A stretch of DNA of 64,000 nt from Bryum argenteum (Eukaryota > Streptophyta > Bryopsida > Bryales > Bryaceae), in contig CM073323.1 in the NCBI GenBank assembly GCA_037043015.1, positions 6,076,001-6,140,000 on the forward strand, read 5' to 3'. A program made the position numbers and the translations under genes. Each line of letters starts with the position of its first letter. Positions within the stretch are counted from its first letter, which is position 1. This document shows, piece after piece, positions 9,534-63,376 of the stretch. A model generated the notes under the pieces. The model did no database searches and had not been told where the DNA came from. It saw only the letters and a list, made by a program, of their open reading frames with translations.

Positions 9534-9773
9534 AGCTTTCTCGATACACTTGGCATACTTGGGGCTTCGTAAAGCAATGCGCCAAATCTCACGACCACCA
9601 GGCTTCACTTGATCCCTCAAAGCAACGCACATTGTGTCGATGTCACCTTGTTCCATCAAGTCTACGTGGTCCATGAGGATGACTTAGTGTGTCAAGCACA
9701 ACATTCGGGATCAGTTTCTATATAGAAAAAGAAATATGGATAGGATGGTGTCTTGCAATGAGGCTCACCTTGG
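9534..9773 (-). pseudogene. Captured fragment of BTA1 (one exon plus intron)
   Basis: This block matches 18878-19119 of the intact BTA1 gene at roughly 85-90 percent by eye. It contains nearly all of the exon encoding DHVDWLEQDD and KPGGRVIWRSASR, the whole adjoining intron and the last few bases of the next exon. Retention of the intron shows copying at DNA level rather than through mRNA. The match stops abruptly at both ends: on the left against a 25-bp repeat unit, on the right against the second TACTTCAA array. No function is expected. Confidence 0.9.
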
Positions 9774-9965
9774 AATACTTCAATTACTCCAATTACTCCA
9801 ATTCTCAGTACCTCAATTATGTCAATACTTTAAATACTTCAATACTTCAATACTTCAATTACTTTCAAATACTCCAAATACTTCAAATTCTTCAAATACT
9901 TCATTTACTCTAATTACTCCAAGTCTTAATACCTCATTACTTCATTACTTCAATTACTTCATGAA
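9774..9965 (+). repeat. Second TACTTCAA minisatellite array
   Basis: Same 8/9-bp units as the array at 7148-7965. It carries the same larger block (TTACTCCAA units followed by a close variant of TACCTCAATTACGTCAATAC), so the two arrays share a common origin. It begins at the exact edge of the BTA1 fragment. Confidence 0.9.
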
Positions 9966-10472: not shown

Positions 10473-10476
10473 TTAA

Positions 10477-10903
10477 CCCCTAAACGCCCAAGGGGGGGTA
10501 AAGCTCCTAACAATTGGTAATAATGCTGATTTTTTCAAAACTACGTAAAAACAAATAAAAGATGAAAATGGGAAATCCAACCGTAGGATCTTCTTTGGAG
10601 CATGGCAATTAGTATGACCACCAAGTTGCATGCCATTTGGAGGTATGGATTTCAAGATCCATGCAAAAAAGGGGTGAAGATCACACCACCAAAACTTTCA
10701 TGAAAAATCTCTTTCGCCCACTCTCACAAATTGAGGATCAAGGTTTTTACTATTTATCCAAGGAGGGAGTAGAGTAAACCCACCGAGGAGTTGAGCAAAA
10801 AAAACGGCGGATGAAAAATCGATGGGATGAAAGCGGGGTTGTGCACCAAAGACGGAGTCTCACATCCAAAATGTCGAAAAACGACACCGTGGGCGCTTAA
10901 GGG
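10477..10903. mobile_element. piggyBac-type MITE (427 bp)
   Basis: The left end is CCCCTAAACGCCCA; the right end is TGGGCGCTTAAGGG, whose complement is CCCTTAAGCGCCCA. TTAA lies directly outside both ends (10473-10476 and 10904-10907), the target duplication typical of piggyBac. The termini match the full element at 45509-51204 except at one or two positions. There is no coding capacity, so it would have needed a transposase supplied elsewhere. Confidence 0.85.
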
Positions 10904-11031
10904 TTAAGGTAAACAAGAGTAAAACTTTGGTAATGTAGTTGGTAGTTTAAAAGCACAAAATATAGGTTTATGATGATCCGGCCATAAGTGATAATACGGT
11001 ACTATTAAGAGGTCCGAGTTCGAATCCTTAA
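10904..11031. other. Spacer between two TTAA MITEs
   Basis: 128 bp. It contains GAGTTCGAATCC at about 11,017-11,027, resembling a tRNA T-arm or B box, just before the next TTAA. No full tRNA cloverleaf could be drawn. Confidence 0.3.
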
Positions 11032-11393
11032 CCCTTAAACGCCCAAGGTGACCCGAGGGGTCACCTTCCAACAGAATCTTCTATGTAGCTCTCATTGTAC
11101 TCAACTTTTCACTTATATTTTGATGTCAAACTGGTCACCTTCTTGTGATGCATCCAAAAAGTGAAATTTTACAATTCAAATCACAATTTGTATGAGTGAT
11201 TGTGTGCTTTGAAAGGATTGTGGTAGCGAGGTTGGGGTTGTACATAACCTTGTAGGAGGTTGCAAGCTCATCATTGATTGGTGCATTCATGATGCCCTTG
11301 TTCAAAAAGTGCACTATTGATGATGCCCAAGTCCAAAAGATGCTCTGGTCCAATTTTGGGCTGCCCGTTTCACACCCCATGGGCGTTTAAGGG
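11032..11393. mobile_element. piggyBac-type MITE (362 bp) upstream of RPAP2
   Basis: Terminal repeats CCCTTAAACGCCCA and TGGGCGTTTAAGGG are perfect inverse complements over 14 bp. TTAA flanks both ends (11028-11031 and 11394-11397). Its right end is about 360 bp before the RPAP2 start codon, so it sits in the promoter region of that gene. Confidence 0.9.
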
Positions 11394-11397
11394 TTAA

Positions 11398-15959: not shown

Positions 15960-17697
15960 TTATGCGAGATCAGCAGTGGTGGTAGGCTCGCACACAGGGG
16001 AGGCGCTGGCGTCACAGCCAAGCACATCATGATAGGCTCGTTTGATGGTGAAGCTGTCCACCACTTTGTTGTCTTTGCTGTGCGTGTACTCGAACGTCAG
16101 GTGCTGGCGATCAGTGGCGACCAGCTTGGTGTATCCAGTTTCGATGTCCTTGATCACCGACCAGATGGTGTTTGTCGCTCCATATCCTGCCAGCTCTCTG
16201 CCTGCATTTCCAGTCACTATGTTGATCGTGGCATTGAATTGACCTGCGTACGCATTTGTGTAGCTGCTGTCCAGAGGCACGCAGTTGCTCACCACCGTCC
16301 ATCTTAGCCAGTACCCATCACGAACACATGATGTTGACAATCATGAAATTGTAGGCCAAAAGGCGTCGATCGATAGACCTAGTGTTGGCAATCTGCTAAT
16401 TATGTAGTGTCAAAGCCTTTCACGTAATGGATATTTAGAAGCATGAGTAAGTATGTGTGTCGAAGGTACGGGTACCTCGTAGACGGGGCAAGTGCGCTCG
16501 TAATTGTAGAAAGCGAGGTCGACCTTGTGCTTGTGCCAGAGGTCCTGGAGGTTGTCACGGGCCATGGGCTCCGCGAAGGTGCCTAGCACTTGGTAATCGT
16601 CGGCGGAGGAGTAGCCGAGCAGTCGATGGGCCATGAAGATGGACCACGGCTGCGATCGCCTGTCGACGGAGCCGAAACACTTGTCCAGCCACTCCCATTG
16701 CTCCGATCCCTTCCTCCACTCTTCCTCCGAGTCGCCCACGCAGAAGTGTAAGTCGCCCACGCAGAAGTGAAAGGACGTACCGTCATATCCAAGAAAGTTG
16801 AGATAATGGTAGTAAGAAAGCGCGAAGAAGTAGAGCACATTCGACAGGAATGTCGACATGAACCCATGTGTAGGTGATCCCAAACGGCGTGCACACGAGG
16901 GTGGGCGCTAGATGATTCCTGCATTCATGATATCCAATCTGCATCAATTTCTGAAGAAAAAATACACCAAAAAAACCTCCCCTTCATAAAAATGAACCTA
17001 GCACTCAGCAAGAGACCTTGTTCAAATGACCTCACCTTCAAACACGGAATTAGTTTGGGTAGGTGATATGGCTCAAACACGTCTTGCAGGTTGCCTGACT
17101 CCGGGACCAAAGGTGAGCTCTGGGCAAGGAGCTTATCATGCAACCGCAACACTAGGAGCAATGCCTCCGCACTCTGGCTTTTGACGTCCTTCCGCAACAA
17201 TTCATCGAACATGGGACGAGCACACACGGTATCCGTAACAGTACTTGAAGGCAACTGAAAAATCAGTAAAATGCATAATCAGTAAAATGTCAAGCAAGTA
17301 AAATATAGTAAACTTTAGCACATAGGAAGAGATTTTATCTAAAACTAGAGAGAACGTAACCCTAGGAACGTCAGTTTCCAAATTAGAGTTTGTGATGTTG
17401 TAAGGATCTAGTGGTCACAAAGGTACAATGCGACCTCAAAAACAGTAGTAATAATATCACTCTGCAAGATATAGTGATGGAACAGGACGTACCTTGCTGG
17501 CAAGCTCGATGAGCAAAGTCACAGCTGGCTCCCGGAGAAAAGTCTTCTGCTTGGCGAGAGTGAATAGGTGCTCCACAATCTCATTTGCCAGTCCCTTCTC
17601 TCCTAAACTAGTGCCGTCACCAAGTATCCTCTTTGCTCGTATCAAAGACCCATGCGCAAACAAGCGACCTAAACAATCCATCTCTCGCATCCTGTGA
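15960..17697 (-). pseudogene. Chimeric broken locus: DNA polymerase V/MYBBP1A exons joined to purple acid phosphatase 3' end
   Basis: Upstream part: exons of about 17697-17493 (AKRILGDGTSL, FLREPAVTLLIELASK), 17254-17036 (SAEALLLVLRLHDKL, YHLPKLIPCLK) and a start at 16918 (PRVHAVWDHL) resemble consecutive exons of the plant DNA polymerase V/MYBBP1A nucleolar family, phase 0 to phase 0. Downstream part: about 16770-16476 (HFCVGDSEEEWRKG, PWSIFMAHRLLGYSS, NYERTCPVYE) and 16287-15960 (QFNATINIV, DSFTIKRAYHDVLGCD) resemble the C-terminal half of a plant purple acid phosphatase. In that family the metal-binding motif GHxH precedes NYERTCP. Here LAFY runs straight into NYERTCP, so those four codons are missing in frame. 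A 21-bp tandem duplication repeats HFCVGD, and the two halves are in different frames. Both parent genes are truncated. Broken in several places; at most a non-coding transcript. Confidence 0.75.
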
Positions 17698-34009: not shown

Positions 34010-36346
34010 AATATAAAGACTTAGAAGTTAGAACTTAGAAGGTAATACTCGGTCATTCTTGCAATTGTTTGAATCATAATCTAGTCTTTTTTCTAAAAGT
34101 TCTGTATGTGGAATTAATCATATATACTACCTTGGTGACAAAGAAGAACATACATAATACTTTACTTGTTCCATAATGTCTATCGTGCAAGTTGCATGAG
34201 AGAAATTTGAGACAACCCACATGACTTGTAAACTTATTCAGACAAAGAGCAGTATAAGCACAACAATGTCCACTTTTCAAATACACCACGAACCTTCATC
34301 AACAATAATCATCGATTAATATCCCAGATTAAAGAAACTTCTTTTATTTGCCCTACTTGAAATCATGTAGGATGTATATCAATTCAAAATACAAAATTGA
34401 AAACAGGTGGATGTTGCTCACGTATTGGTACAATTGACTGAAAAGGGAAGTTTGTGCATTCTGAAGTGTGGAAGTTGAAACATTTTGCGGATTATGCGGA
34501 GGTTTGTGTGCTACACATGAGGCAGCATGCGCGCACACAATCAATCAGTACTACTGCTTGGGCACCAACTGCATGAAGATTTGAGGATATCGAAGGGGCT
34601 TGAGCATTTGTAAGTTGAGAATGGGAGCTGTTTGCATGATTCTGTACTTGGGTTGTTGACGTACATTGTATGTTGGATCAGGAGGATTCCACGCCACAAT
34701 ATTTTTGTACTTGAGTTCCTTCCTCATGAATTTATTTACCTACCTGTCCGAAATGACCGTAAACGTATAGTACCCAAACGATGTTGTGGATTGAATACCT
34801 TGTTGTGCAATTTCCTACCACTTTATGCGAACTTTCACCTTGACCTCTTATATTTTTCTGTGGCGAGTACAAAAAAAGAAATATACCTATGAGGCTCTTT
34901 TCTCAAACTATCCCAATTAGGAATCAAAGCTCTTGTGATGGAGGCACCAATAGCTCAGTTGTTACATTAGACCATTTACAATTCATCACAATGGACACTT
35001 TGGACGACTTGGCCTTGTGATCGGGTCAATCTAAGCGTGGTGGTTAATAGAACTTGTCCTATGTGTACAATGTGGTGAATTATAGTAACTTGTTCAATGT
35101 GACAACCTTGCTCTAGAGCCTTTTTTTATGGGTTCAACAAGTTTTGCTCGTGGAGAACGGGAGATACTAAATGAATGATTTTAAAAGAATGTACAAAGCA
35201 TGTAGGACGCTGATCTAAATAGAATCATATCTTCCGGATTATTACTGAATTGATTATGAGAATTTGAAATTAGGGACACAGATATGCCCCCATACCAGTT
35301 GCTAAAATCTGGAATCATCACCTTGGAAGTGTTCATCAATCTTTAAAGATCATGATGATTAATTTGTAAAAAAAAAGATACTTACATTGAGCACAACTCT
35401 CCAGAGAGTTCTTAGAAGCGGTATCATATGATATGTGTTTCCAAAAGCGAAACTCACTAGATAAGCTTAACACACAGAATGCATGTTATGTGCAATTTGC
35501 TCAGAAACCGCTTTCTCTTGGTGGCCACGAGCCAACCTCTCAACTTGTCGGCCAAGATTTTTCATACTAACAGCTAAAACGAAGAAAAACTTTTCATATA
35601 ATCTTACTTCCTAAGGTGTGCCACTTCTTACTCATCCTGGGATTTCAAGAAACTAAGCATGATTGAAATGAAGTTGCAACGAGTTCAAGAACGCATGATT
35701 GTGATGTAATGAAATTCAAAGATCGAATTTCAGTAATGCATGATTGATGAGAAACTGCAATTAGTTCAGAAATGTAAGTATGATGACAACTTCACATACA
35801 CTGCAAGTATGGCATTTGAACTAACTATTTATTCAATAAATTAAAGGGACCCTCCAGCATGAAGACGGTCCCTTGTTGAAAGTGCAACTTACAATGCAAC
35901 TCTTACTAGTGGTTCACACTATTCAGGCTCAAGAACACCAAGTTCTCATATTTATTATCAGCTTGCTGGAGCATTGAGACACAGACTGCCCCGCATGCAC
36001 TCAAGAACATGAGCTTAACATGCTGAAAATTGTCATAACAGTAAGTAAGTTAACTACAGGTGACTTTGCAATGTTCAACACTCAAGTAGTGAAATTGGAA
36101 AATTCGTAAATATGTGGCAATTTTGTAAATTGTGGTAGCACTTGGCAACTGGCAAGTTCTGTGAAGGAAACCATTGTTGTGCTCTGAAATGTGCAAGAGT
36201 CAGTGAATTTTAGGACAATTTCATGCTCTGTCACGACTCAGGACTTGTACAGTTCAGTACAAGTACAGTACACGAGAGTCACAGTAGGCAGTTAGGAATC
36301 AAGTATGCCCTGATCCATGATTGATATTCTCTCTGCAGCCCTGGTA
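34010..36346. other. AT-rich sequence without recognised features
   Basis: About 2.3 kb with no plausible gene, RNA gene or clear transposon end. Short open frames at 34074-34289 (-), 34353-34544 (-) and 34632-34892 are unremarkable. Confidence 0.4.
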
Positions 36347-36641
36347 AGGTAGACAGACCTATAACCGACCACTTAAGGATTTTAGCACATGATATTAAGG
36401 TATATATTTTTTTAAAGAATTTTTCATGTGTGCAAACATAAGGTTCTTGTTGAATGCAGAAAGTTTCGTGATTTTATTTGCATTATTCAAATAGTTATAA
36501 TTGTTCAAAGTGAAAAGTTGCTTGGAACCTAAAGCTGATCTCATACTCAAATATACAAATGAGGTACCTCTTTTCTTTCAAAATCTAGGAATTGGGCTAG
36601 ATCGGTTATTGGTCGCCTGTCGGGAATGGGTCTGTCTACCT
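36347..36641 (+). mobile_element. TA-flanked MITE family M, copy A (295 bp)
   Basis: Starts AGGTAGACAGACC and ends GGTCTGTCTACCT, a perfect 13-bp inverted pair. TA lies outside both ends, as for Tc1/mariner-type insertions. Two more copies lie at 62171-62464 and 62804-63096. No coding capacity. Confidence 0.85.
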
Positions 36642-36794
36642 TACTCACTGTAAATAATTATGATAAGTCCCTGAAATGCACGAAACTGTCACCAGTGTCA
36701 TACTAGCATAGAATCATCATCATCCAGAAGCTCCCAGGCTGACCAATTGCCAGAGCTTATGCAAGTATATATATGTTTTTTCCATCTAAGTTAA

Positions 36795-37043
36795 CCCCTA
36801 ACTTTCCTTAAAACTCGAAACGGGTTTTGGAGGTTTACACAGGAGAAAAACTCAGCCAGCTTTGACCATTATAATCTCACAAATGAGGAAGAATGAACGG
36901 TTATTTTTTAGAATGAAAGAAGAATGTCAAGTGAACTTTGAGATCTTACGGTTGAATCTTTCAAATTGAGATTTTTTGAGCTTAATCTAAAGGAAGGTCA
37001 CTTTTTGTGACTTACACCGTTTTGCAACAAGGGAATTTAGGGG
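36795..37043. mobile_element. piggyBac-type MITE, subfamily 2 (249 bp)
   Basis: CCCCTAACTTTCC at the left and GGAATTTAGGGG at the right, with TTAA outside both ends (36791-36794 and 37044-37047). In inverse orientation its interior carries ATTCAACCGTAAGATCT, AACCGTT and ATTTGTGAGAT in the same order as the left 230 bp of the full piggyBac element. It is therefore an internally deleted or rearranged derivative. A close relative lies at 44344-44603. Confidence 0.85.
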
Positions 37044-37047
37044 TTAA

Positions 37048-40000
37048 TGATCAGTATGTAAGTAGCTTGTCTTAGATCCTAGGAACAAGTGTCAATATCT
37101 TATTTAAGATAAGTTTGATTGCTTAATGTCATGTGTTTTTGGGATTGAATTGGGCTCTTTTTAAAATGCATGAGTGTATCTTGAACTTTGAGTTAAAGTG
37201 GTGATGACATATGTACTGACATATTTTGCAATCTCTTGGTGGGTGGAAGCAATCTATGGGCTTCCCACCATTACATAGAATTTGTACTTGTTCATGGTTA
37301 CCAATGTTCAAGGGTGACTGAGGACTCTTTGTGTTGATAATCATTACATGAAAATATACATGTTGTTAACTTTTGTATATATCATGCTCCAACAATCATT
37401 TGATACTTGAAATTTTGGCTCTCCTTGTTCTCTAATAATACCATTCATACTTGGACATTTCTTACACTATTGGAGATAGTCACTCTCGTAACTCAAATGT
37501 GTAATTAGGACATCTGAAATGTGCCCAAGATTGCTTGTAAATCCTCAAACATTCTTGACATCTACCTATTACTAAGTAGAATCTCATAGAAACTTTAAAT
37601 TCTTGAAAAAATTGCTATTTTACTTATCTCCATTTTGTTTTTTCACATGTAAATGAGGAATATTGGCAAGACCTCACCATTAGATTTCTTTACAACAAAG
37701 TTTTTACATGTCTTTTTATTGAAAAAAAGAAGAAAAGAACTAACCCCAATTCCGTTAAAATGGCATTTTTCCGGTAAAATGGCATTATTCCGGTAAAATG
37801 GCACACCTCAACTTTCTGTACTGTAGTTCAAAAACCATGTGATATAACAGAATTTTAATGTGATATTATGGAAAATTAGTGACAATGTATATAGAGAAGT
37901 GATATTACAAAAAAAATTGTGATACTACAGAATATTCCTCCATGTCAGAATATCCTAATGTGATATTTTAAAATATGAATATTCTGACCCTCAAAAAATG
38001 AATATTCTGACCCTCAAAACATTGCTTTTACTTTTCACAGCAACAGAGAAAACTGTTTTTTCCAACTTAGAAGTTAGAACGCTGTGATCTCACAAACGGG
38101 GAGGAATTTCAGTCTAAAACGTTTTGTCCATGATCTTGTACAAGTTCATAACAAGATCATATGGTTACACACTTCAAAATTACCATACAATGAAGAATCT
38201 CACCTTGCATTGAAAGGAGGCATAAATGTGGGTAAAACATGCTTTTGAAACGTTCCAGGAGGTTAACTAGCTCAAGTTACCCCATGTTTATGGAGATTCT
38301 CGAATGTAATGAATATGTTCATTTTATCACATAGAATGGTTCAGTCTGGCTGACACATTCCAGTGGAGTGCACCCGCAGCCAGTGTTTTGTACAGGACCA
38401 CATTGGCGATGACTGAGACGTACTTACCAGAACTGCACCAATGCAGGCTGCGTAGCTCAGATGATGTCTGAGCATCCCTTCCAACATTCTGGGTACCACT
38501 GTACGATGATTGTAACGACAGTGAGCCAGTCTAATTTGCTGGAAGAGGAGGGGTGCGATATTTGTATCAATTGATATTTATATTTGTGGCCGGTGCTGAT
38601 ATTTGCTAAAGCCACTACTTTAGAATACATTATCTGTGCCTGGTCAACAAGACATCATGATCATTGCTCATTCCACCTGTTCAAAAACAGAGCCATCTAC
38701 GCAATCATCTAGTGCTGTGTGAATCAGGTCTGAGCGGGATCAATACTTTGGCGTGATCGAATTGTCTCGATCGATCAGAGGGCAGCGATGGTGCGAAGAA
38801 GAGCTTGCTCCACGCATATGCGCTGGTGCTGCATGAACAACCCCACGCCGCCCCCGCACAATCCTCCGCGGCCCGTGCTGGTGAACACACCCCTGCCGCA
38901 TCCGCCCCCGCCCCACAATCACCACGGCCTCGCCAACGTCGCCTCTGCGCCATTTCATCTTTCCACTTTGAAAACTCCGTGGCCGGCCGGTAGCTTGCCC
39001 ATAATTCTTCTTGTGTAAATTGGTTTAGATACGTACGGTTCATGTTTTTAGCTAGCCCACTTCGACCTTCTGGAAGTCACTTGAAGGAGAATGATGCTGC
39101 TGGATCACCATGAGTCGATCTCCACTTGGATCAGGTGCGTAAGTTCCTTCAATGGATCTTCTGCATGTGCCAGCATTTAAAACTTCATTCAATATATCGT
39201 ATTTCTCTTGAATCATTCAAAATATCATACCTTCTATGATAGTTACTCTTACCTTCGATGAAATGAAGTGATTTTATTCTAGTTTGACGATGTTTGCATG
39301 CATGCACATGTACCGTTCGATCACCACTCAGGATGAGTATGGACAGAACACAGAAACCCAGTTTTGAGTTATTTTATGTATCATTTTGGCGCGCATGGAA
39401 TGAGAATACATGTGAGCTTGCTAAATCCTGTTCGAATTTTCTGTGTGATTCTGTACCCGTTCAGATTTTCTATATATCTTGATACAATAGGCGAAATAAT
39501 CTGGGGTAGTTTCTCTTGTCTTTGTTACTTTCTACTCTAGATTGCACCATCTTGCACTTTCACTACTAACACCATAAGCGCCAAATAACAGGTCGATCGA
39601 ATCGATCTTCAGAAACGAAAGAGACGATTCCGCCACCTCGAAATCTAGATTGAGTTTCCTACTTTGCATAACCCATGCACCAGATACGAGCAATTAAGAA
39701 TTGATAGGATGCGTGCAGTGCCAGATTATGAGGATTATGTGCATTCGGTCAAATCCATCTGTACTGTAGTACTGCGGCGACTGACTTGCAAGCGCCAGTC
39801 AAAGTTAGATTTTCATGTAGTTCAGGCCAGATGATTTAGCTCTATAAAAAGTCACTCGGGTATTTTACAACACAAATCTTGGGAGAGTGAGAGGAAGGAT
39901 GTATTCCATATATTCACGTTTAATACGACATTGAAGTCAAGTCCATAAGCACGGACTTCGTTAAATTAGCTCCGTGAGTTCGAACAAAACTTGTCGAAAC

Positions 40001-40959
40001 CATTCTTGCTCAGAGATTCTGCTATAATCTTGATTCCTCGGTATTGTTTCAAGGGATGTTGAAATTTCATTAAATACAGGTCTGCTCGTAGATTTTTCAT
40101 AGAAATTATCAAACGAACAATCTGTCAAGCTTTCGAATTCCGATCGAATGAGGATCATAATTATGTACTCCGTATAATGTCCTAAATAATATTCTAGAGC
40201 AAGGCAGATGGGGATGATTGTGATTCCTACTCTTGGCTTCTGCAATGGGGTGCTTGCAATCTGTAAGGATCTAGTCAATTCAAAAGATTTTTTTCTTGAA
40301 GTCACAAGGAATCACATAATTATCCTGTAAATGCACTATTAACCAACTTTAAGGTGAAATATTTCGTTATAATGGAAATATTCAAATTATCAATTGAATT
40401 ATAGTTGAGATTGAGTTGAGCTATATGAACCCACAAATTGGGTACTTCACTAAAACTGTACAAAACAACCAATCATTGAAATTTTCAGATGGCCATATCA
40501 TAATCAAATTTTGTCTAAATTGGGTATATGACTATATGAGGTGTTTTTTGACATGTATTCTTTCTTTACACCGAAGGAAATTAGACAAGACACTACTATG
40601 GCTCATTCTATTAACAAGATTGATATATATTTAATTGCGTGAATGAGGAGGTGAAGAAGCTAAGTGATAAACATTCATAATAAATTAGTTCATTATTTTC
40701 ACAAGTTGTGGAGGGCATACTTTTCCTGTGTGCAAATTCCACTGTTCTCAAGATTCTCAAAGTGCTTCATTGTTGGAAGTACAAGTGTTTTATGGAATTT
40801 AAAACAAATGATGCTGGTAAAGGCCAAAATCAAAGAGGTTTTTGTGCAACACATTTACTTTCAAATTGAAGAGCGTCGAAATTATTGAAATTTCAAACAG
40901 TCAACTATTATTTCTTAAACATATTCATGAGCATAATTATGGAATTGACCAAATTACAA
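37048..40959. other. AT-rich sequence, few features
   Basis: Contains a 17-bp tandem repeat (TCCGGTAAAATGGCATT type, three units, about 37,755-37,805); a sequence near 38,075 (AACGCTGTGATCTCACAAAC) resembling the interior of the piggyBac MITEs; a GC-rich patch at 38,760-38,990 with Pro/His-rich open frames on both strands and no recognised family; and a TATA-like TCTATAAAAAGTC near 39,841. No supported gene. Confidence 0.4.
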
Positions 40960-40984
40960 TTTTTGCAACAAGGAGATTTAGGGG
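40960..40984. mobile_element. Solo right end of piggyBac-type MITE subfamily 2
   Basis: TTTTTGCAACAAGGAGATTT then AGGGG, followed by TTAA at 40985-40988. This matches the right ends of the copies at 37.0 and 44.6 kb. No credible left end lies within the expected 250 bp. Confidence 0.5.
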
Positions 40985-41576
40985 TTAAAGGAAAGCGGTT
41001 GTAAGTGCAAGGCATCTGGAGGTTGTAAATGATTGAAGTTTTTCATCACTTCCCATTTGCTGACAGGAGGTAATAGACCAACATATTATTCCCTTACCGC
41101 ATGGGATAGAAGATATTGGGTGGATTTAAGATTGTTAGTATAATTTGAGCATTATGGAAATGATGGTTGGTTAAAACGTTCAAGGGGCTGATACAAATAT
41201 TTGAAATATACAAGTATTTAATTTTTTAGATACACGTATAACTAAAGCATATAAAGAGAGATAGTTTGACAAACACTACCTTACAAATATTGTATTATTT
41301 ATCAGCTACGTTTTTACAATTCCATATTATTGTCATAATTTGGTGAGTGCAAACTAAATTCAAAGCACCGTTATTATTTAAAATTCTTTTGTTAAATTCT
41401 GGATGCGAGCTACATTTAAATTCTCCTTCTTGTTCCAAGGTTATGCAAGAAACAAAAATTGGGCTACATTTGGATGCAATCACAGGATGTGTTTCTAGCA
41501 TGGGAGGGATAGAAGTCACTTTAAAATTATTGTTAAGCTACATTTCCAAGCTTTCATATTCCAAAATTGAATAAGA

Positions 41577-41606
41577 GGGGGGGGGGGGGGGGAATTGGGG
41601 GGGAAT
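41577..41606 (+). repeat. Poly-G tract
   Basis: A run of about 16 G after AATAAGA, then a second G7 run. The flanking AATTTGAATAAGAGGGG at about 41,623-41,640 repeats the context. Such G runs can form quadruplexes and are prone to length error. Confidence 0.8.
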
Positions 41607-41899
41607 TGGAGTGTGGTAGCTCAAATTTGAATAAGAGGGGAAGTCAATGTGGGAAGATTTGGATCCCCCCTCGCCTTCAATCTCCCCTCTTTCTCTACCT
41701 ACTCCGCATATTTTTGGAGTAGGCATATCCAAACATTCTTCGGCACAAACGGGGATTTTGATAACCCCGATATCGAGGACAATGTTGGGATTTGCATTTG
41801 CTAAACCGAGGACCCTTGTTATTTCAAAACAAAGCCAAGTTTAGGACGAAGGGAGGAGAAGAGAAGGGAGAGTTTGTGCAATCTCCTCTCCTCTCCTTT
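41607..41899. other. Short spacer
   Basis: No features seen. Confidence 0.4.
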
Positions 41900-42190
41900 G
41901 CCCCGCTGCACCCGCCTCACGAAAATGGCACCTGCCCTACTCCACCTGCCCCGCTAAAATGACACCTGCCATGCGAAAAGGGCACCTGCCATGGGAAAAT
42001 GGCACCCATCCTCCTAAAATTGCATCCGCCCTACAAGAATTTGCCATGCCGTGCACAAATCTGTTGTGCTATGGAGGAATCCGCCCTGCCTTGCAGAAAC
42101 CTGCCCAGCCATGGAGGAATCTGCCCTGCCATGGAAGAATCCGCCGTGTCGTGGAGGAATTCTTCCTTGCGATGGAGAAACCCATCCTTC
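41900..42190 (+). repeat. Degenerate minisatellite, units of about 17-21 bp
   Basis: Imperfect units such as GAAAATGGCACCTGCCATG and GAGGAATCTGCCCTGCCATG follow each other for about 290 bp, giving open frames in more than one phase. GC-rich compared with the surroundings. Confidence 0.7.
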
Positions 42191-44343
42191 CAATTAGTAA
42201 TCGCCTTGTCATTGGTCCTAAGTGACGCTTATGTGGCAGCCAAGTGGCTAAGTTTTCACCTAAAACCTCGCCAAGTCGTCATTTTTACCTCACCTAAAAG
42301 TCAACAACCGTTTGACGATATCGGGCCAACAAGAGCTCGATCGAGCAGGCAAGGTGGGCCGGCGAGCGGCCTTCCTGCTCGGTTTGACAACCTTGGTTAT
42401 ATGTTGGAAGCAATGTTGGTTTGTATTGGACCGTGTCCGACGTGGATTCTCGGTCTAGGTTGACGTAGAATTTGAATAGTCATATCACACTGTCTCATTC
42501 TATGTCAAGAAATGTAGTTAGCTTATTTAGAGGCTTGTGTGTTTTATTTCTTATTTATTTTATGTTTTATATTTTTGGTGATGTGGATAATGGAGAGTGA
42601 ATTCGTGGTCATATAAGGTCAGTAATTTCAATAACTTCTATGTTAGTATTCAACGTGGAATTTTTTTTTTTTTATTTTTATCTTTTTATCTTTAGAATTT
42701 TTATGTGGAATATTAATTTTAAAGTAGAAAACAAGGAGTCATTTCCTAGTCATTTGCTGTTGAGCACTTCAGTGATATGTTTTATAAAATCCAACGCGGC
42801 TCTTGTGTATGACTTGAAGATAATGACTTGAACACAGTCATTTATTGGAGTCATAAAATGCTCAATTTCTACTTTTCTAGTAGTGTTTTTTGTTATCTTG
42901 CCTACAAATATTTTCATTTTTACAACCCAATTTTTGAACTTTCTCATTGGAGATTTTATCCTTCTCATCCTATTGCTTAACAGGGTTGTCTTCCGCGACT
43001 CATTTTTGGCAATGTTTGTCAAGTTGTCGTGTTCGTTGTGTTTGTCAGGTGTTTGGTACGTTAGACAATTTAGAGGAAATATGCTTGAATATCCAAGAAT
43101 ATGTAGGCATACTCTATAATATACTAAGTATATTCTAGGAATATGGTATATTCTCAAACAAAGGGTCTGTTGTCTCACTTGTTTGTCTGACATGTTGTGT
43201 TCGACCTCGTGTTGAGTTTGCCACACAAGACAACCTTGTTGCTAAATATCATTATCAACAACTCTTTGCTGGACTTGAGTGCTTTCCCGCATTCATAATG
43301 CACCCAATTAAATTTTATGTAAAATGAACATTTGTTTGGAATTCTTACACTTGAAGTTGGTTGTAAACTTACAATGTCTATGTATAGTATCAATTTGGTA
43401 TAGATCCGATATGTTATCTTGTATGTGGAATTGAATGAACATTATGAAATATAGTGATTGTCTTAATAGATTTTATTCAATGAGTTTTATACGTTGTGGA
43501 AGCCATTGTCATAGCAATAGTCCAAGGATATAGTTTCACTTTGTCATAAATTTTGTGCATTTATATATTTGGATTCAATTTGTTGTTAGTTTGCTTCATA
43601 GATTCATTGTTATAATTACAATTCACAATATATGTTCGATCATAGGTAGATTGTTTTGCATGATTGGATTTTGTTTGACATTTTCTCTCTTAAAATAATT
43701 TGGGCTATGTCATTCTATGCGAGGACTATCCCACCTTTCTCGAGGTTTATAGTTAGCTTGTGCCGACCTAGAGTTGCTTTCACTTGCTCATGGTACTCAT
43801 GAAGAATCCCTCATTAATTTTGGAAACAAAGCACAATCCATTCTTCAACATCCCTTAGTAGACCTTGAATCCGCATAGTGAAATTGTACCATAATTCTTA
43901 AATGCTCATCCTATATTGTACTTTAAAGTTACAATCGCACTACGTTAAAACAATTCTCAACAAAAGTAGGACATGAGTCTCAAAAACAACAAAAAAAAGT
44001 ATTATCGATATAGTGAAAACTATATAATGTTAAGAGGTAGAAATACCCGCATCATGCACAAATTCAAAGTCCGTGGGCATTATGTGTTGCCTGCAAGCAA
44101 GCAAGATCGGCTTGCTTTTCCACAGCCTCTTCCAAAATGTATCACTTCATCCCTCCATACATGTGAGTTGTATATCTCTATGAAAGTCTACTTAGACAGC
44201 CAAAAACCTAAGAGGCACACCGCGTAAACTCTACGAGTTTCAGTAATTTTGGAATGTTGTATTTGAGTAAAAAAAATATAAATTAAACAATAAAAATAAA
44301 AATTATAGATCTTTGAAATAGAATCCAACATTGCATGTATTAA
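42191..44343. other. AT-rich sequence without recognised genes
   Basis: Open frames at 42750-43226 (-), 42883-43119 and 43973-44227 show no domain. No transposon ends recognised before the MITE at 44,344. Confidence 0.4.
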
Positions 44344-44603
44344 CGCCCAACTTTCCTTTAAACCCGAAACAGGTTTTGGAGGTTCCCGCAGGAGAAAAAC
44401 TCAGTCAACTTTGACCATTATAATCTCACAACTGAGGAAGAATGAACGGTTCAAATTTGGCATGTGAGAGGAATGTCAAGTGAACTTTGAGATCTTACGG
44501 TTGAATCTTGTAAATAATGTTTAGATTAAGATTTATAAAGCTTAACCTAAAAGAAGGTCAAACTTTGTGACTTAGACTGTTTTGCAACAAGAAAATTTAG
44601 GGG
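44344..44603. mobile_element. piggyBac-type MITE, subfamily 2, second copy (260 bp)
   Basis: TTAA at 44340-44343 and 44604-44607. The body is clearly homologous to 36795-37043 (CCAACTTTCCTT, GGTTTTGGAGGTT, CTTTGACCATTATAATCTCA, GAGATCTTACGGTTGAATCT). The left terminus is changed to CGCCCAACTTTCC while the right keeps TTTAGGGG. Confidence 0.85.
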
Positions 44604-44640
44604 TTAATGACACATTTAACTACTTATGGACTGGAAGCAG

Positions 44641-45504: not shown

Positions 45505-46211
45505 TTAACCCCTAAAGGCCCAAGCGTTTTTGCAACCTCCAATCTCAAAATCTGCGATTTTTGACCACATTGTGGAGTTTGGAGTATGGCATAAATTTTT
45601 ATTGTATTCTGGAACATTCAACCGTAAGATCTTGAACCTAACTTCATCCATGATTACCATGTCAAATCTCAACCGTTGGATCTGCACCATTTGTGAGATC
45701 ATAACGTTCAAAGTTGATGCAGAAATTTTTTTGTGGCTTGCCCGAAAGACATAGTCTACTTGGTGCAAAGGGAGACTTGGTGATTGTTACCCTAAACATT
45801 TTGCTAGTATTTTTTTCCATGTTAGAAATCAAGTTGGCCACACCCATGCAAAATTTTAGACACTCATTCCACTTTTTGGACCTTCATACAATTTTTTTTC
45901 TAGAAGGAGGCAAAAAAGTACTCTAAGTGAACAAATTGGGGTTCTAATACAAATCCACCATCAACTTTTTGAATTTTTCAAAAGTGAACGGTGAAAATGT
46001 TCCTTTACACAAATCAGAGTCATGGGGAAAAAAATTTGAAAAAAAGTAAAATCTCAATTATTGACAATTTTGGAGAACATAAACACACATATGCAAATTA
46101 GTAAATGGACGGGCAACAAAGAAGAATGGGAACCCATTCTCAATCTTACGGGCCCATTGCTGGCAATATGGCAGAGCTATGAATAGCCTACTGCCACCAT
46201 AAATACTTTGC

Positions 46212-46616
46212 CTAATATTCTATGTAGATAGCTATGACATGTGTCACTTGCAATAAAGGGAGGGCTTTCTTCCCGTTGCTCCCCACCGTTACTAAGCTCC
46301 CTAAGCTCTTTATAAGTTCCCTATAAAAAGATGATCTGACAAAAAGGCCCACGCTTGCAACGACAAAGTGGATTTGACTGGCACCTTGGGGAGCCACATG
46401 AGGTGGCAGGAATTTCGTGATCTGGAAAGAGCCGAGCTGGAGGAGCTGGCCCGCCTTGCTGCCGTCCCTGGCCACCACTTGTACCGTGCAGTAGGCGCAC
46501 TGATTGAAGCCCCCCCTTTGCGAAGTCGTTCTCCAGGGCACAAAATAGAATTCTCCTAACTGGAGAAAGGACTCCAGGGATTGCCGAACACCTACAAAAT
46601 CACCAAAATTTATCAA
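46212..46616 (-). CDS. Hypothetical open frame inside the piggyBac element
   Basis: A 134-codon frame in a GC-richer patch near the left end, beyond the transposase 3' end. It includes NQCAYCTVQVVARDGSKAG and a later His. A C-x2-C pair of this kind occurs in BED-type zinc fingers of plant transposons, but the rest of the motif is not convincing. It could be a relic of another element. Confidence 0.25.
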   Translation of the reverse strand: MINFGDFVGVRQSLESFLQLGEFYFVPWRTTSQRGGFNQCAYCTVQVVARDGSKAGQLLQLGSFQITKFLPPHVAPQGASQIHFVVASVGLFVRSSFYRELIKSLGSLVTVGSNGKKALPLLQVTHVIAIYIEY

Positions 46617-46639
46617 TTTACAAGAATTCTAATGTAACT

Positions 46640-46990
46640 AATAAAAAATAAATTATCCATAAGCATAGTATTATTCATAGTATTATTACTAACTTTTGTA
46701 TGTGGGGTAAGAAACAAAGCAAAGAATTATTCACAAGCAATATTCAAATTATTGTGGTGTCATTTGTTTGTGGGGTAAGAAATAAAGCAAAGTATTATTC
46801 ATAACTCAACTACTATTCATATTTGTTTGTGGGATAAAAAACATAGCAAAGTATTATTCACAAGCAAAGTACTATTCATATTATTATTACTAACGTTTGT
46901 TTGTGGGGTTCGAAATAAAGCAAAGTATTATTCACAAGGAAAGTACTATTATTCACAAGCAAAGTACTATATGCGCAAAATGTGGGGTAA
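46640..46990 (+). repeat. Internal imperfect tandem repeat in the piggyBac element
   Basis: Several copies of a module combining TTTGTTTGTGGGGTAAGAAA and AAAGCAAAGTATTATTCACA, spaced by about 75-95 bp. No coding role. It lies between the transposase 3' end and the left terminus. Confidence 0.75.
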
Positions 46991-47038
46991 CAAACTTGAG
47001 CTTCCTCTTTGTATGCAAAAAGAAATACTTACATTCAC

Positions 47039-49678
47039 TCACATATGGCGTTGGCGTCGTATGGCAATATCTGTGTGCCACTTCTCAAAGCAACCTCGAT
47101 TGAGACACATCCATTTGTCTCCACACTTCCGGCGATAATGTGGTTCAAATTTTTGGCAAACCACACACCGACGTCGTAATTTTGTATATGTGGGTACACA
47201 AATCAATGGCGTGTTCCTTGCTCGAGGAATATCCGCGGGGTGTGAATCTCTCATAGGCCACCCTTGAAGAAGGGCTTCACATAAGCCCTTCTTGAATTGA
47301 AGGTGTGTCATCGGCGTGCGGTTATATCGATAGTGTTTCACACACTCCAAATAATATATATACATGTTGACAATCGAGACATCCAATAAGAAGAAAAAAA
47401 AATACGGTGCCACCACTTGTGGCTCCGTGCTTGGCATGAATAGGATGCTCGGAGTTGATCGGCAACATCTACACCTCGCATGTGAGTTGTATATTCTTTC
47501 AAAATCGGGGATGTTAGAATCATTTCACGACTTGCACCATTTCGCCGAGGGACCGTTACTACCTTCTCACATGGGGTTGAATTGGCAAATAATGAGTGGA
47601 AATAAGAAGCACGGGCTTCTTATCCTTCCACATAACACATGATATCGTCATGGGTGTCATGCATTTTCCATAAAGTTGTGCCTTGAGGCACATTTTTGAA
47701 AGAATTGGTGTTTTTCAAATCTAAGGGAAGACCAACCCGGTTTGCCCTTATTGTCCCACATGCATACATTTTCCGTGATAAAAGAGTTGTGAAAAGTCCA
47801 AAACTAGTGAAGTAATTATCCATTGTCACGCAATGGCCTAAGTTCCAAAGGCCATCCACTAACCTCATAACTACATTATGGGCCAATCGAGCATCGCCAA
47901 GAACAATATTAGGTTGTTCTATGGGAAGGGGGGCTACAATATTGTCTTTTCCACAATAGATCTCGAAATTCCATACGAACTTTGAAATCGAGCATGCCAA
48001 ACACCAAACCTTCAAGCCCCACTTTTGAGGCTTCTTAGGCATATATTGACGTATCGGTGAATATGTCCCCTTATAGCGAATCATCATTTCATCAATGGTC
48101 AAATATTTTCCAAGAAACCATGCCTTTTTACATTGATCTCTCATAGCATTGACTAACCATCTTGTTTGACCGATTTTGTCATAACCCGGTCCCCTCTAGT
48201 TTGTCCTTCCATGTTTGTAAGATGGAGACATCTCCTAATGTCTTGAAATCGGGCCCGTGTAAATATATTTGAAATACTTGGGCATCCAAAGAGGTCATCA
48301 CGCATCCAATATGTTCTTACATTAGGTTGAACCCTCAACCCCATATATATGGCTAAGGCCATAAATGCTTTGAGGCTCGAAATTGTCATATTCTCCCAAG
48401 TAGGACCACCTTTGGTATTTCCATGCTCATCTAAAGGAGCATTTGCATACCGATTAGTTTCTTGAACAATAGTGGCCAACATGTGTGGAGTCCAAAAGAG
48501 GCCAAATAAATCCATAAAACTTGGCATACCACGATGATGACGAGAAGGACCCATGGGTTTCCCCAAAAATGATATCGGCATTGGATTATACATAATACTT
48601 GGGTTTCCCCAAGTCTCATTCCTAAATTGCCACCTAATATCCTCTTGTTGATGGGGTAACCCATCGTTACGATTATCTCCATCACTATCGAGGCACTTTC
48701 AAAATTGGGTAAGTCCTCACTATCATTCCCACCCAAATCATCCCTCACACCATTGCGTGTCATTCTCCTTCTTATTATATGTTCTTCCTCAACATCATCA
48801 TCCCACTCCATATTATTATTACCGCCCTCAGTATCATTGCCATAGAATTCTCCAGGCCCAATACCAGTACTTCTCTCCCCAATAAAAATATTTGGCTGCA
48901 ATGTGAATTGACCAATATTTTCTTCTGAAGTCACAACTACTGGTTGCCCTTGTAGCCCAAGCGTATGGCCTGTAAGGGGAAGGCCAGAAGGCGATGCACC
49001 CGCCACAGGAAGGCCCTGGTGCCCGGGTAAGCAGGCGTGCCGGCCGTTGCTGCTGTTCGGCTGGAGATGCCCCGCTGCGCTCGGCGCCGGACCCCAGCTG
49101 GCAGCCGACGCGCTTGACTCGCCGACGTGGCCCGACCTCGTGGCCGCGGCGCTGTGCCAGCCCGCAGTCCGCCGGCTTGAGTCCCATACTAGTCGCAACG
49201 CCGTTGCATCACCGCAATCTTGGTCGACGCCTAGCTGCAGCGCTGGTCCGTGCATCTCACCACTCCCGCTTGCTTCTTCGGGATCAGGTCCAGCATTGTA
49301 GATCTCACCACCTCTCTTCCGTCCTCTTCGGCCAAAGTTTATTGCTGCAAGCAAGACTTCAGGTGGCCAGAGGATATCCTCAAGACTTGCAGCTCTCTCC
49401 ATACCACTATCATCTTCTCCTTCTTCATTACACAATTCTTCTGAGCTTGGGTAATACGCATGCACTGGAGATTGCGAATTCAAGTACTCGCCGTTGAAGC
49501 CAACATCTGTATCAGGGAAGGTCATGAGCTCAACTCCAGGTCCTAGATCTGGCAATTCTTGATGTTGAGGAGGTAATATTGCTTCAGGACTAGATGGTGG
49601 GCTTGGAGGAACCGTAGTTGGTTCCGGTTGTGTCTGTAGACGTGAACTCCTTCTCATTGGAATATTGTCCCACTCCAT
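47039..49678 (-). pseudogene. piggyBac transposase (DDE_Tnp_1_7 type), frame-interrupted
   Basis: Read 49678 to 47039 on the minus strand. An acidic, low-complexity N-terminus (MEWDNIPMRRSSRLQTQPEP) comes first. Then PSFMDLFGLFWTPHMLATIV and SSLKAFMALAIYMGLRVQP of the transposase fold. The catalytic core has the first Asp in YLTIDEMMIRYKGTY (about 48,090), the second in VTMDNYFTSFGLF (about 47,815) and the third in MRGVDVADQLR (about 47,460). The C-terminal Cys-rich cross-brace finger is CVVCQKFEPHY..C..CLNRGC..H (47,165-47,075). The frame changes near 48,600-48,720, near 48,165, around 47,530-47,620 (with a stop at 47,620) and near 47,400, so the copy cannot make a full protein as read. DEDD-like residues and finger cysteines are otherwise kept. 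A GC-rich insert in the N-terminal part is described in the findings. Confidence 0.9.
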
Positions 49679-49756
49679 CTGTATTCTCCAAGTTAGACAT
49701 TACTCATAACTCTCAACTATGAAATTTAGGTACATGTTACACAAGAGATACTCACC

Positions 49757-50667
49757 TCCTTTGACTTCTTCCATGATCGACGTGGAGGCATTGCTTGTAT
49801 CGGGCCAAGTAGATTTGACAATATCAAGAAATTCTTGCTCAAAAGCGTGTTGATCAACCCACCCTAGAATATGTGCGGCTTGCCTGTAGAAATGGTGTCG
49901 GAAATTATTTGCTTGTGGATTTCTTGGCCAAGCTTTGGACTTCTTACGAACGCGTAAACTGCGCAAATGTTTTTGATCAAGCAGTGAAAGGAGGTCATGA
50001 ATCTGATGTGCTCGAAGGTGTTTGCGTACAGCCCAGGAACGAAGGCGAGCTTCTGGATCGGCAGATGGAGGCGGCAATGTCGAAATAAGAAGTGGCTGCA
50101 AGTTTCCGACACTCACAACCGCAGTATTGGGTTCCTGCATATGGTCATATTAGTCAGTTGATGTGATGTCAGTTTACCATGCAAGTTCCACATGCAAACC
50201 AAGTTCATGTTCATGTATTCGAACCCGTTGATGTGATCGCTCCTCGATCTGTGCAATCATCTGATCGCTCACTGGCGCATGGGCTGCCGAAGTTGGTGAT
50301 GATCTGCAGGCTGCCGAACTTGATGCAGCGGCGACCTTGAAGCTGGACGGTCGGAGGCAGCTGCAGTACGCCTCCGAAGGAACTCGTCGACCTCCCTGGC
50401 ACGTACAGTTCGCCGCCGATTCCTCTCGCTGAAGCTCAACCTCGGCGGCAAGTACAGTTGGACCACGAAGGAGCTGTTCGATCTCCTGGCCGAAGACTCT
50501 ACTGCGTAATCACCATTTTCAGTGCTCTGATCATTTTCGGTCCATACTGGCACCTCGATGAATCCTTCTCCTACTGTTGCACTCGCCTCTCTCGAATCGG
50601 TAGTTGCTAGTGAAATGATGGCAGCAGTCACAGGAACCCCGTCCAAAGAATTTGCAAAACTAGCCAT
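49757..50667 (-). CDS. Upstream open frames of the piggyBac element (novel N-terminal exons or accessory protein)
   Basis: Two blocks. 50667-50269 begins MASFANSLDGVPVTAAIISL and contains RLSFSERNRRRTVRAREVDEF. 50134-49757 contains RLRSWAVRKHLRAHQIHDLL, KAWPRNPQANNFRHHFYRQA and DQHAFEQEFLDIVKSTWPD. The second block ends at a donor-like GGAG/GTGAGT, and the transposase frame begins right after an acceptor-like TACAG/ATGGAG at 49678. It also begins after TATGCAG/GAACCC. They may therefore be 5' exons of the transposase transcript. I recognise no known domain. They could equally form a separate accessory gene. Confidence 0.4.
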
Positions 50668-51208
50668 AATGGATTTTTGTTACTTTTGAAATATGCTTTG
50701 GATTTGATGTATGCTGTTTGTTGTTCCCAACATCTTTCCATGAGTTTCTCATTCAAATTCTGAAATTTGAATCGCCCCATGTCAGTGTGTTCTCAGCCGC
50801 CAGTTTCACGAAGTTTGTAGTTATGACATGTATTTGGAGGGGGCGTCAATCTTTGGCCAGTCCCAAAGCATTCAATTCTGCCGAATGTTGGGTCCTCCAA
50901 AACCCTGCTTGGAACCCCTGCCCCTCTGGAGTTTTCTCGAGTGACCCTCGCAACTGCCCCCATTTCCACCTTGTTCCTTAGTGGCCACAACAACAACCCG
51001 TTCTGCCCTTTCTCAACTCCAAATCAAAAATTTGCTCTACAAGGCACTAAAATTGGAATCTTACTTTGCAAATTTTACCACACACAATTACTATGTTTCC
51101 CGACACACACACCAAATTACAGCCCAAAACACCAAAATTTGACCTCTCATCTAAGGTGCCCAAAACTGCAAAACGCCGATTCGGCTTTCCTGGGCCTTTA
51201 GGGGTTAA

Positions 51209-53645: not shown

Positions 53646-54330
53646 GGAAGCAATTGAGTTGAACCCGTGAAAAGTTGAGCAAGCGATCGAGAAGTCGAAT
53701 TGAAGGCGGCTAGTGACAGGAGCTTTTTCGTCTCCCACGAAGACACCCAACAGCAGCTTGCAAACAGTTCGGGCGTCGACTGCCAAAGACTGAGATCGAG
53801 CGGGTGTTGGATGCCTTTGAGGGAGAATAACAAACCCCTGCGGTGCTTGCACGCACGGCGCTAGCTGTTGCTCTGAACGCACTAACTCCTGGTCTGGAGC
53901 GCCCAACTGTTATCAGTCTGCAACCAATAACGCAGTAGCAGCTGTTGATCTGCAAGCAATGAGAAGTGATCCCGGATGATAGATTTCCACGGGCCAGGCC
54001 TATTTCAATGCACACGACAAGATCAGAGGGGGTACTGTACTAGCTGGTCCCGCTTCAGTCTGACCAGGCGATGCAAGAGAGAACTGTGGAGATGATGCAT
54101 TGAGACCTGCCCTACACGACCCCCTGCAATCGCAAGAGCTGCCTTCAAACGTGCGTGACAATGACCATCTTCTCTTTCTTTTCTTTCCATTTTTTATTTG
54201 AATTTTTGTAGAAATACCATATACCGACTACTTAAGGAGTTTTGTATGTGGGAGTTTTGTATGTGGGTGACAGAAGAATTCATGATGTAGCTAAGACTCC
54301 TAAGAGCTGCTCTACTTAGGGAGTTGAGGC
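53646..54330. repeat. Dispersed repeat family R2, 3' extension
   Basis: 53,725-53,850 (TCTCCCACGAAGACACCCAA, TTTGAGGGAGAATAACAAAC) is repeated with divergence at 56,250-56,360 (TCTCCTACGAAGGCATCCAA, TTGAGGGAGAAAAACAAACC). The class is unknown. The minus-strand open frames here are not convincing genes. Confidence 0.5.
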
Positions 54331-54483
54331 CAGTGTTGTCTTATCAGACAAGATTCCTATTCATTTGTCAAACAAAATTTAGATGAGATGTACATTTGAT
54401 CCATTGAAAATGTTTTAAATGTACACCTCATCTAATTTGTGTCTGACAAATGAATAGGAATTTTGTCTAATAAGACAACCCTG
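54331..54483. mobile_element. hAT-type fold-back MITE (153 bp)
   Basis: Long inverted arms of about 65 bp: the left begins CAGTGTTGTCTTATCAGACA; the right, in complement, begins CAGGGTTGTCTTATTAGACA. They are separated by about 25 bp. An 8-bp target duplication, GTTGAGGC, lies outside both ends (54323-54330 and 54484-54491). CAGGG-type termini and 8-bp duplications are typical of hAT elements. As RNA it would fold into a long hairpin. Confidence 0.88.
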
Positions 54484-54491
54484 GTTGAGGC

Positions 54492-61818: not shown

Positions 61819-62168
61819 AGGAGTTTTTTCTGAGAAGTCAATTGGAATCTCAACAAATAGGAAAACAATATTGTAGGTTCATTTATAGGATAAAAATTAA
61901 CTGAGACTTCATGGTTCATACTGTCACTCCATATAACACAATCTATGCTAGTATATCATATAAGATAAGCAATTTTTGCGAGTGCACAAAATAAGATAAA
62001 TTTTTTTTTGTTGATACAACAATCAAGATACCAAATTTTTGCTAGTACATCAAACTTTATGGATGATATCAGCATGTACAAGACATAAGTTAGAAAAATG
62101 CTAATACATCAGACAAGATACACAGTCTTTGTTAGCACAATAGACAAGCTACAGAAACTCTTTCCTAG
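61819..62168. other. AT-rich spacer
   Basis: No features seen. Confidence 0.4.
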
Positions 62169-62170
62169 TA

Positions 62171-62464
62171 AGGTAGACAGACCTACAACCGACCACTTAA
62201 GGATTTTAGCACATGATATTGAGGTATATATTTTTTTTAGAATTTTTCATGTGTGCAAACATAAGGTTCTTGTTGAATGCAAAAATTTTCGTGATTTTAT
62301 TTGCATCATTCAAATAGTTATAATTGTTTAAAGTGAAAAGTTGCTTGGAACCTAAAGCCGATCACATGCTCAAATATACAAATGAGGTACATCTCTTCTT
62401 TCAAAATCTAGGAATTGGGCTAGATCGGTTATTGGTCGCTTGTCGGGAATGGGTCTGTCTACCT
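62171..62464 (+). mobile_element. TA-flanked MITE family M, copy B (294 bp)
   Basis: Starts AGGTAGACAGACC and ends GGTCTGTCTACCT, with TA at 62169-62170 and 62465-62466. Nearly identical to copy A at 36347-36641. Confidence 0.88.
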
Positions 62465-62536
62465 TATGTCAAAAAAGATAGAAAATTTGTAATTAATAAA
62501 TCAAAGAATATATATAATGATGCAATACATTTTATT

Positions 62537-62640
62537 TGACACAAATAAAAAGGAGACTTTTACTACAAAAAAGAGTGGTACAAGAGCTTTTTCCGCCATG
62601 TCCAGTGAAGCCAGACTTTGTCCAGACTTTAAACGAATTA
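62537..62640 (-). mobile_element. 3' end of a second LINE copy (same family)
   Basis: On the minus strand: TCTGGACAAAGTCTGGCTTC, ACTGGACATGGCGG, CTTGTACCACTC, GTAGTAAAAG-TCTCC and TTTTTATTTGTGTCAA. This parallels the 3'UTR of the LINE at 30,083-30,210 (GTCTGGCTTCGCCGGACCTG, CTTTATTTGTGTCAA). Severe 5' truncation leaves only about 100 bp, lying between MITE copies B and C. Confidence 0.7.
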
Positions 62641-62803
62641 CATCAAGCCACTAAAAATCAATTTCCAAATGATTTTGTATAATCCCAATTTCAGAAGAGG
62701 AAAATAAAAATGGATATGATCTCTTGGCCAATCTTCATGGTCCACATTGTAAACTGCCTCCAAACATCAAAATTATTTGATACCTTAAGCCCTCTTTACA
62801 CTA

Positions 62804-63096
62804 AGGTAAAGGGACCCATTCCCGACCGGGGACCCATAACCGATCAAGCCCAGTTTCTAGATTTTGAAAGAACAGATGTACCTCATTTGTAAATTTGAGC
62901 ATGTGATCGGCTTTAGGTTCCAAGCAACTTTTCACTTCAAACAATTATAACTATTTGAATAATGCAAATAAAATCACGAAACTTTTTGCATTCAACAAGA
63001 ACCTTATGTTTGCACACATGAAAAATTCTAAAAAAATATATACCTTAATATCATATGCTAAAATCCTTAAGTGGTCCGTTATAGGTGCCTCTACCT
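62804..63096 (-). mobile_element. TA-flanked MITE family M, copy C (293 bp, inverted)
   Basis: Homologous to copies A and B in inverse orientation. Ends AGGTAAAGGGACC and GGTGCCTCTACCT, with TA outside each (62802-62803 and 63097-63098). More diverged than A and B, especially in the terminal repeats. Confidence 0.85.
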
Positions 63097-63376
63097 TAGT
63101 AAGAGTTGAGAAGACATAAAGAAGAAGAAGAAAAAATCAGCTAATAGGAATGCTCAAATTCTTCTATCCAATGAAATATCATGGGTAGAGACAAAGGGCC
63201 AGGTAAGGACTTTACATTATTCAAATCAATATTCCACAAGTAAAAGGGGTGCATTTTCATGTGTGCTCAAACCCAAGGGGGACAAGCATGACCTTTTTGA
63301 ATGTCTATCATGGGAGATTGGGCACAAAGAAGGAAGATGATGGTATGGCAAACATACTCGATGATGATGAGCGCGG

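Follow-up and report, generated by a model that had tools for sequence, protein, structure and literature searches.

The 5704-bp segment at positions 45505–51208 of the window, the whole 64-kb stretch of DNA analysed here, was described in a first-pass annotation as a full-length piggyBac transposon of a land plant. The locus raises the question of whether it is indeed such a transposon, in what state its gene is preserved, and whether related elements accompany it.

Borders and interior of the large element

The length of 5704 bp includes the TTAA at both sides. An inverted-repeat search identified the right end (51191–51208, minus strand), to which the left end (45505–45522, plus strand) is 100% complementary. 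Together they make up a perfect inverted repeat of 18 bp, TTAA followed by the 14-bp terminal inverted repeat (TIR) CCCCTAAAGGCCCA, with 5668 bp between its arms. The perfect 14-bp termini of the first-pass annotation, with TTAA flanking both, are therefore present as described. The piggyBac ends and TTAA target are described in PMC10175614, an excerpt of which gives the TIRs as 12–19 bp long and beginning with CCYT. The TIR of the large element begins with CCCC, and CCCT is found in three of the four ends of the short elements M1 and M2 discussed below. The departure from CCYT was counted against the explanation preferred here, as was the length of 5.7 kb, which exceeds the maximum of 3.52 kb among the bee piggyBac elements tabulated in an excerpt of PMC10140906.

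A left subterminal segment of the element (45610–45717, plus strand), which contains CAACCGTAAGATCTT and CAACCGTTGGATCTG, is common to two further short elements, M3 and M4. Downstream of the transposase, an AT-rich tandem array with periods of 21 to 133 bp occupies positions 46682–46970. The element also contains GC-rich stretches at about 46.3, 48.9–49.3, and 50.3 kb. The open reading frames (ORFs) tested in these stretches had no meaningful Pfam match, and the stretches have no match elsewhere within the 64-kb window; these results therefore give no support to gene capture by the element.

Transposase homology and the state of the reading frame

The transposase is encoded on the minus strand. 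A search with the profile PF13843, proposed in the first-pass annotation, matches it in three consecutive pieces. Piece 1 (48156–48698) covers profile positions 3–96 (E = 2.3e-19). Piece 2 (47623–48195), which is in a different frame, covers positions 101–261 (E = 8.3e-37) and carries the first and second catalytic aspartates. Piece 3 (47341–47619) shares the frame of piece 2 past a stop codon, covers positions 286–338 (E = 3.9e-05), and carries the third catalytic aspartate. The pieces are colinear from profile position 3 to 338, with gaps at 97–100 and 262–285. All of them exceed the 22.4-bit cut-off of PF13843, the third narrowly with 23.5 bits; taken as a shorter ORF, the third piece scores 21.7 bits, which is below the cut-off.

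The three aspartates were found in the contexts given by the first-pass annotation: IDEMM (codon 48091–48093), MDNYF (47818–47820), and GVDVAD (47467–47469), all on the minus strand. The proteins used for comparison are PDB entries 6x67/6x68, labelled 'Transposase', which we take to be Trichoplusia ni piggyBac, and 9c0f, piggyBat, presumably from the bat Myotis. The aspartates of IDEMM and MDNYF align with T. ni residues 268 and 346 in the numbering of the printed alignment, and the third aligns with the GVD aspartate of piggyBat (E = 0.0008). In an excerpt of PMC10140906, the catalytic residues of T. ni piggyBac are D268, D346, and D447. A phmmer search of the PDB with the ORF at 48144–47620 returned T. 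ni piggyBac (E = 6.6e-13) and piggyBat (E = 2.2e-07) as the only two matches at E ≤ 1, and piece 1 matched piggyBat (E = 1.9e-06) and, weakly, T. ni piggyBac (E = 0.019). An AlphaFold model of piece 2 alone had a pLDDT of 41.7 and was set aside.

Beyond the profile matches, a probable N-terminal coding stretch (48434–49699, minus strand) has no family match, and a segment containing WKDKKPVLLISTH (47562–47714), which looks like piggyBac, has no match in Pfam or the PDB. A probable C-terminal piece (47042–47524, minus strand) was read by eye in a third frame. It ends in the C-terminal Cys-rich finger of the first-pass annotation, which is visible by eye as a row of cysteines and a histidine at 47057–47176 (C-x2-C...C-x5-C-x4-C-x4-H); however, this tail looks incomplete, apparently with one cysteine fewer than the piggyBac finger pattern, and has neither a Pfam match nor a piggyBac match in the PDB.

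At least one frame change and one stop codon interrupt the catalytic domain of the transposase. Read by eye, the coding sequence appears to change frame five times between about 48.70 and 47.40 kb. The change near 48.20 kb is the only one of the five that rests on profile matches; the other four are presumed, because the N-terminal stretch, the WKDKKPVLLISTH stretch, and the Cys-rich tail, on which the reading by eye relied, have no family match. An uninterrupted transposase ORF of about 580 amino acids, as in active copies, is absent, which bears on the activity of this copy and not on its descent. The terms full-length and nearly complete of the first-pass annotation thus fit the ends of the element, which are intact, but not its gene, because the reading frame is broken and the tail looks incomplete.

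Short relatives in the window

The window contains four short elements of 257–435 bp, M1 to M4, with TTAA at both ends. M1 (10473–10907) is 435 bp long, and its 18-bp ends are identical to those of the large element at 17 and 15 of 18 positions. M2 (11028–11397, 370 bp) has a perfect TIR, and its 18-bp ends are identical to those of the large element at 16 of 18 positions on each side. M3 (36791–37047, 257 bp) and M4 (44340–44607, 268 bp) are 83% identical to each other over 268 columns, and the left end of M4 has diverged to TTAACGCCCAA. An orphan end of 28 bp, M5 (40961–40988, minus strand), is 93% identical to the end of M3 and has no left partner within 8 kb except the left end of M3 itself.

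The motif TTAACCC[CT]TAA occurs at 10 sites in the 64 kb, whereas 100 dinucleotide shuffles gave 0.05 sites on average and never more than 1. Eight of the sites are both ends of the large element, M1, M2, and M3, and the remaining two are the right end of M4 and the orphan end at 40988. It had been put forward that ends unique in the genome would speak against the transposon; they already recur within the window, in M1–M4 and the orphan end. A search for TTAA-flanked 12-bp arm pairs with up to two mismatches, 80–8000 bp apart, found nine, whereas 30 shuffles averaged 1.2 and never gave more than 3, so that the paired ends are not a product of chance. The nine include four alternative pairings of ends already paired, 10473–11397, 11035–11390, 36791–40988, and 36791–44607, which were left out of the element count, and one unrelated pair, 62197–63070, which was not counted, having other ends and being part of a long inverted repeat.

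The resemblance of M3 and M4 to the large element extends beyond the ends. About 107 bp of the left subterminal sequence of the large element is matched by M3 (70.6% identity) and M4 (73.8%), oriented so that their right end lies on its left end. The scores of 48.2 bits for M3 and 62.6 bits for M4 compare with shuffle maxima of 32.8 and 29.2 (200 shuffles each). M1 scores 32.8 bits, with a shuffle maximum of 30.1 and the matching part being the end itself, and M2 scores 28.3 bits, below its shuffle maximum of 31.9. Because these scores barely exceed or miss those of the shuffles, the connection of M1 and M2 to the large element lies in their ends alone, a further point counted against the preferred explanation. 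With up to three mismatches, CAACCGTAAGATCTT occurs at nine sites in the window, compared with 1.8 on average and at most 5 in 60 shuffles; two sites are in the large element, one each in M1, M3, and M4, and four elsewhere. The main contribution of the analysis is this evidence, from within the window, of a family of short relatives.

Other repeats were observed nearby. The interval 10908–11027, between M1 and M2, has the look of the A-box and B-box of a tRNA (TGGTAGTTTAAAAGCAC ... GTCCGAGTTCGAATCC) and may be a SINE of tRNA origin that M2 interrupted at a TTAA; ARAGORN found no tRNA in it, and it has no second copy in the window. The inverted repeat of about 300 bp (92%) at 62163–63104, with a third copy (95%) at 36340–36643, is a separate family with long arms. 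A 155-bp near-palindrome at 54330–54484 is 85% self-complementary, and degenerate tandem repeats at 7149–7985 have self-matches of 78–80%, some also matching 9769–9961.

Host, origin, and known systems

The neighbourhood was searched against Pfam with 10 ORFs, six of which had any match at E ≤ 0.1, including weak ones that were disregarded. One neighbouring ORF matches RPAP2_Rtr1 (E = 2e-21), and M2 lies about 0.3 kb from it. The exon at 16410–16883 best matches Diphosphonucleotide phosphatase 1 (PDB 3zk4, E = 1.5e-34), which we take to be a yellow lupin protein; the other eight PDB sequences that match it at E ≤ 0.01 are purple acid phosphatases, presumably also of plants. The exon lacks GHVH, the four residues preceding NYERTCP in 3zk4, and is possibly a pseudogene or reaches an exon border there; the same ORF has an UNC-50 match. 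The window also contains a LINE, with reverse transcriptase pieces and a zf-RVT match below threshold, as well as a CCHC zinc knuckle; the latter comes with a weak Pol_BBD match and, as read from the sequence, may be Copia-like. Rfam and tRNA scans of the window were empty. The phosphatase-like exon, the RPAP2 gene, and the LINE support the plant host proposed in the first pass, and the neighbouring genes fit a plant nuclear genome, of a seed plant as well as of a seedless one.

An element of an animal or another organism could have been joined to a plant contig by contamination or chimeric assembly. The only named relatives returned are indeed the animal transposases of T. ni and the bat, from a search that covered proteins of solved structure alone. 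However, the subterminal sequence of the element recurs in M3, about 8.5 kb from its left end, and in M4, about 0.9 kb away, and M2, with the same kind of end, is adjacent to the RPAP2-domain ORF. The aligned core is 35% identical to T. ni piggyBac and 32% to piggyBat, and the element therefore does not group tightly with these two. A foreign origin is thus very improbable. That the locus is a domesticated piggyBac-derived host gene is scarcely credible: all three catalytic aspartates are retained, but so are the intact TIR and TTAA, the frame of the catalytic domain is broken, and short relatives are present.

It is also unlikely that the gene is truly intact and its frame breaks are assembly errors in a live autonomous copy. 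The path read by eye through the frames contains no internal stop, and all five presumed changes have a homopolymer of four or more bases nearby, nine Ts in the case of the last; therefore, sequencing error is possible. Nevertheless, homopolymers of four are so common that this is weak evidence, the LINE of the same window is likewise split into frames, as expected of old copies, and one cysteine of the tail appears to be substituted.

The ends with their TTAA, the homology and catalytic residues, the broken frame, and the short relatives, all directly visible, are best explained by a piggyBac-superfamily cut-and-paste transposon inserted at TTAA in a plant nuclear genome, represented by a defective large copy and by miniature elements (MITEs); we put the probability of this explanation at about 93%. 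Transposons of the piggyBac type move by cut-and-paste transposition at TTAA. An intact DDD transposase would bind at the 14-bp ends and at subterminal CAACCGTaaGATC sites, cut the element out via TTAA-overhang hairpin ends, and integrate it at another TTAA. The motif shared by the subterminal regions of M3, M4, and the large element may have such a binding role. Having lost its frame, the copy at 45505–51208 would be mobile only in trans, by transposase from elsewhere, and M1–M4 would be non-autonomous derivatives (MITEs) mobilised by the transposase of the large element or of its sisters. The family was probably active in the past.

The 64 kb contain five elements with both ends, and two of these lie immediately upstream of the RPAP2-like ORF. 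At slightly less than even odds, a sizeable, long-resident piggyBac lineage is present in a land plant, possibly a seedless one, with a once-autonomous form of 5.7 kb and at least two MITE groups. If so, piggyBac would be a real shaper of this genome and not a stray label.

The first-pass annotation considered piggyBac unusual in flowering plants and under-described in seedless ones. As far as the excerpts of the sources extend, this rarity is overstated: PiggyBac is among the superfamilies found in all taxonomic groups, land plants being one of them (PMC4438587), and among the MITE superfamilies of angiosperms (PMC10004981), 1,230 PiggyBac elements with a total of 122 kb are given for the fern Ceratopteris (PMC6890710), and plants are named among piggyBac hosts (PMC3902484; PMC10140906). 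On the other side, excerpts describe piggyBac in plants as occasional and little studied (PMC12732532) and report a single element of 75 bp in one grass assembly (PMC8319324). An autonomous land-plant piggyBac with defined ends was not among the matches listed for the titles and abstract openings of open-licence papers, which is weak evidence. PiggyBac is therefore already known in land plants, a fern included, and what is new here is that the ends recur in the window.

In wider searches, a single transposase piece found no relatives in IMG/VR, and an alignment of three rows gave 80 pattern stretches in IMG/VR and 89 in GTDB contigs with no relatives among them. Eleven IMG/VR loci from two degenerate motif scans (3 + 8) were dropped after tblastn of the pieces gave a best E of 0.21. 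The element at 45505–51208 leaves the understanding of the piggyBac mechanism unchanged; because its ends are defined and MITEs match it, it can serve as a query to count the family in ferns, lycophytes, bryophytes, and seed plants, and to look for a copy that is still active.

The element resembles T. ni piggyBac (IFP2) in its PF13843-type catalytic domain, the alignment of D268 and D346, the TTAA target, and a short TIR beginning with CCC (for the T. ni ends, an excerpt of PMC10140906). By contrast, only about a third of the aligned core is identical, the TIR is different, the frame is broken in the element described here, and its 5.7 kb compare with 2.47 kb in the same excerpt. All three of its Pfam-matching pieces align with piggyBat, including the GVDxADQ segment, although here too the identity of the core is low. 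The PiggyBac MITEs of angiosperms (PMC10004981) and the PiggyBac copies of Ceratopteris, which average about 100 bp (PMC6890710), share with the family in the window the superfamily label and the presence of short copies, a likeness of labels and counts drawn from excerpts of both sources.
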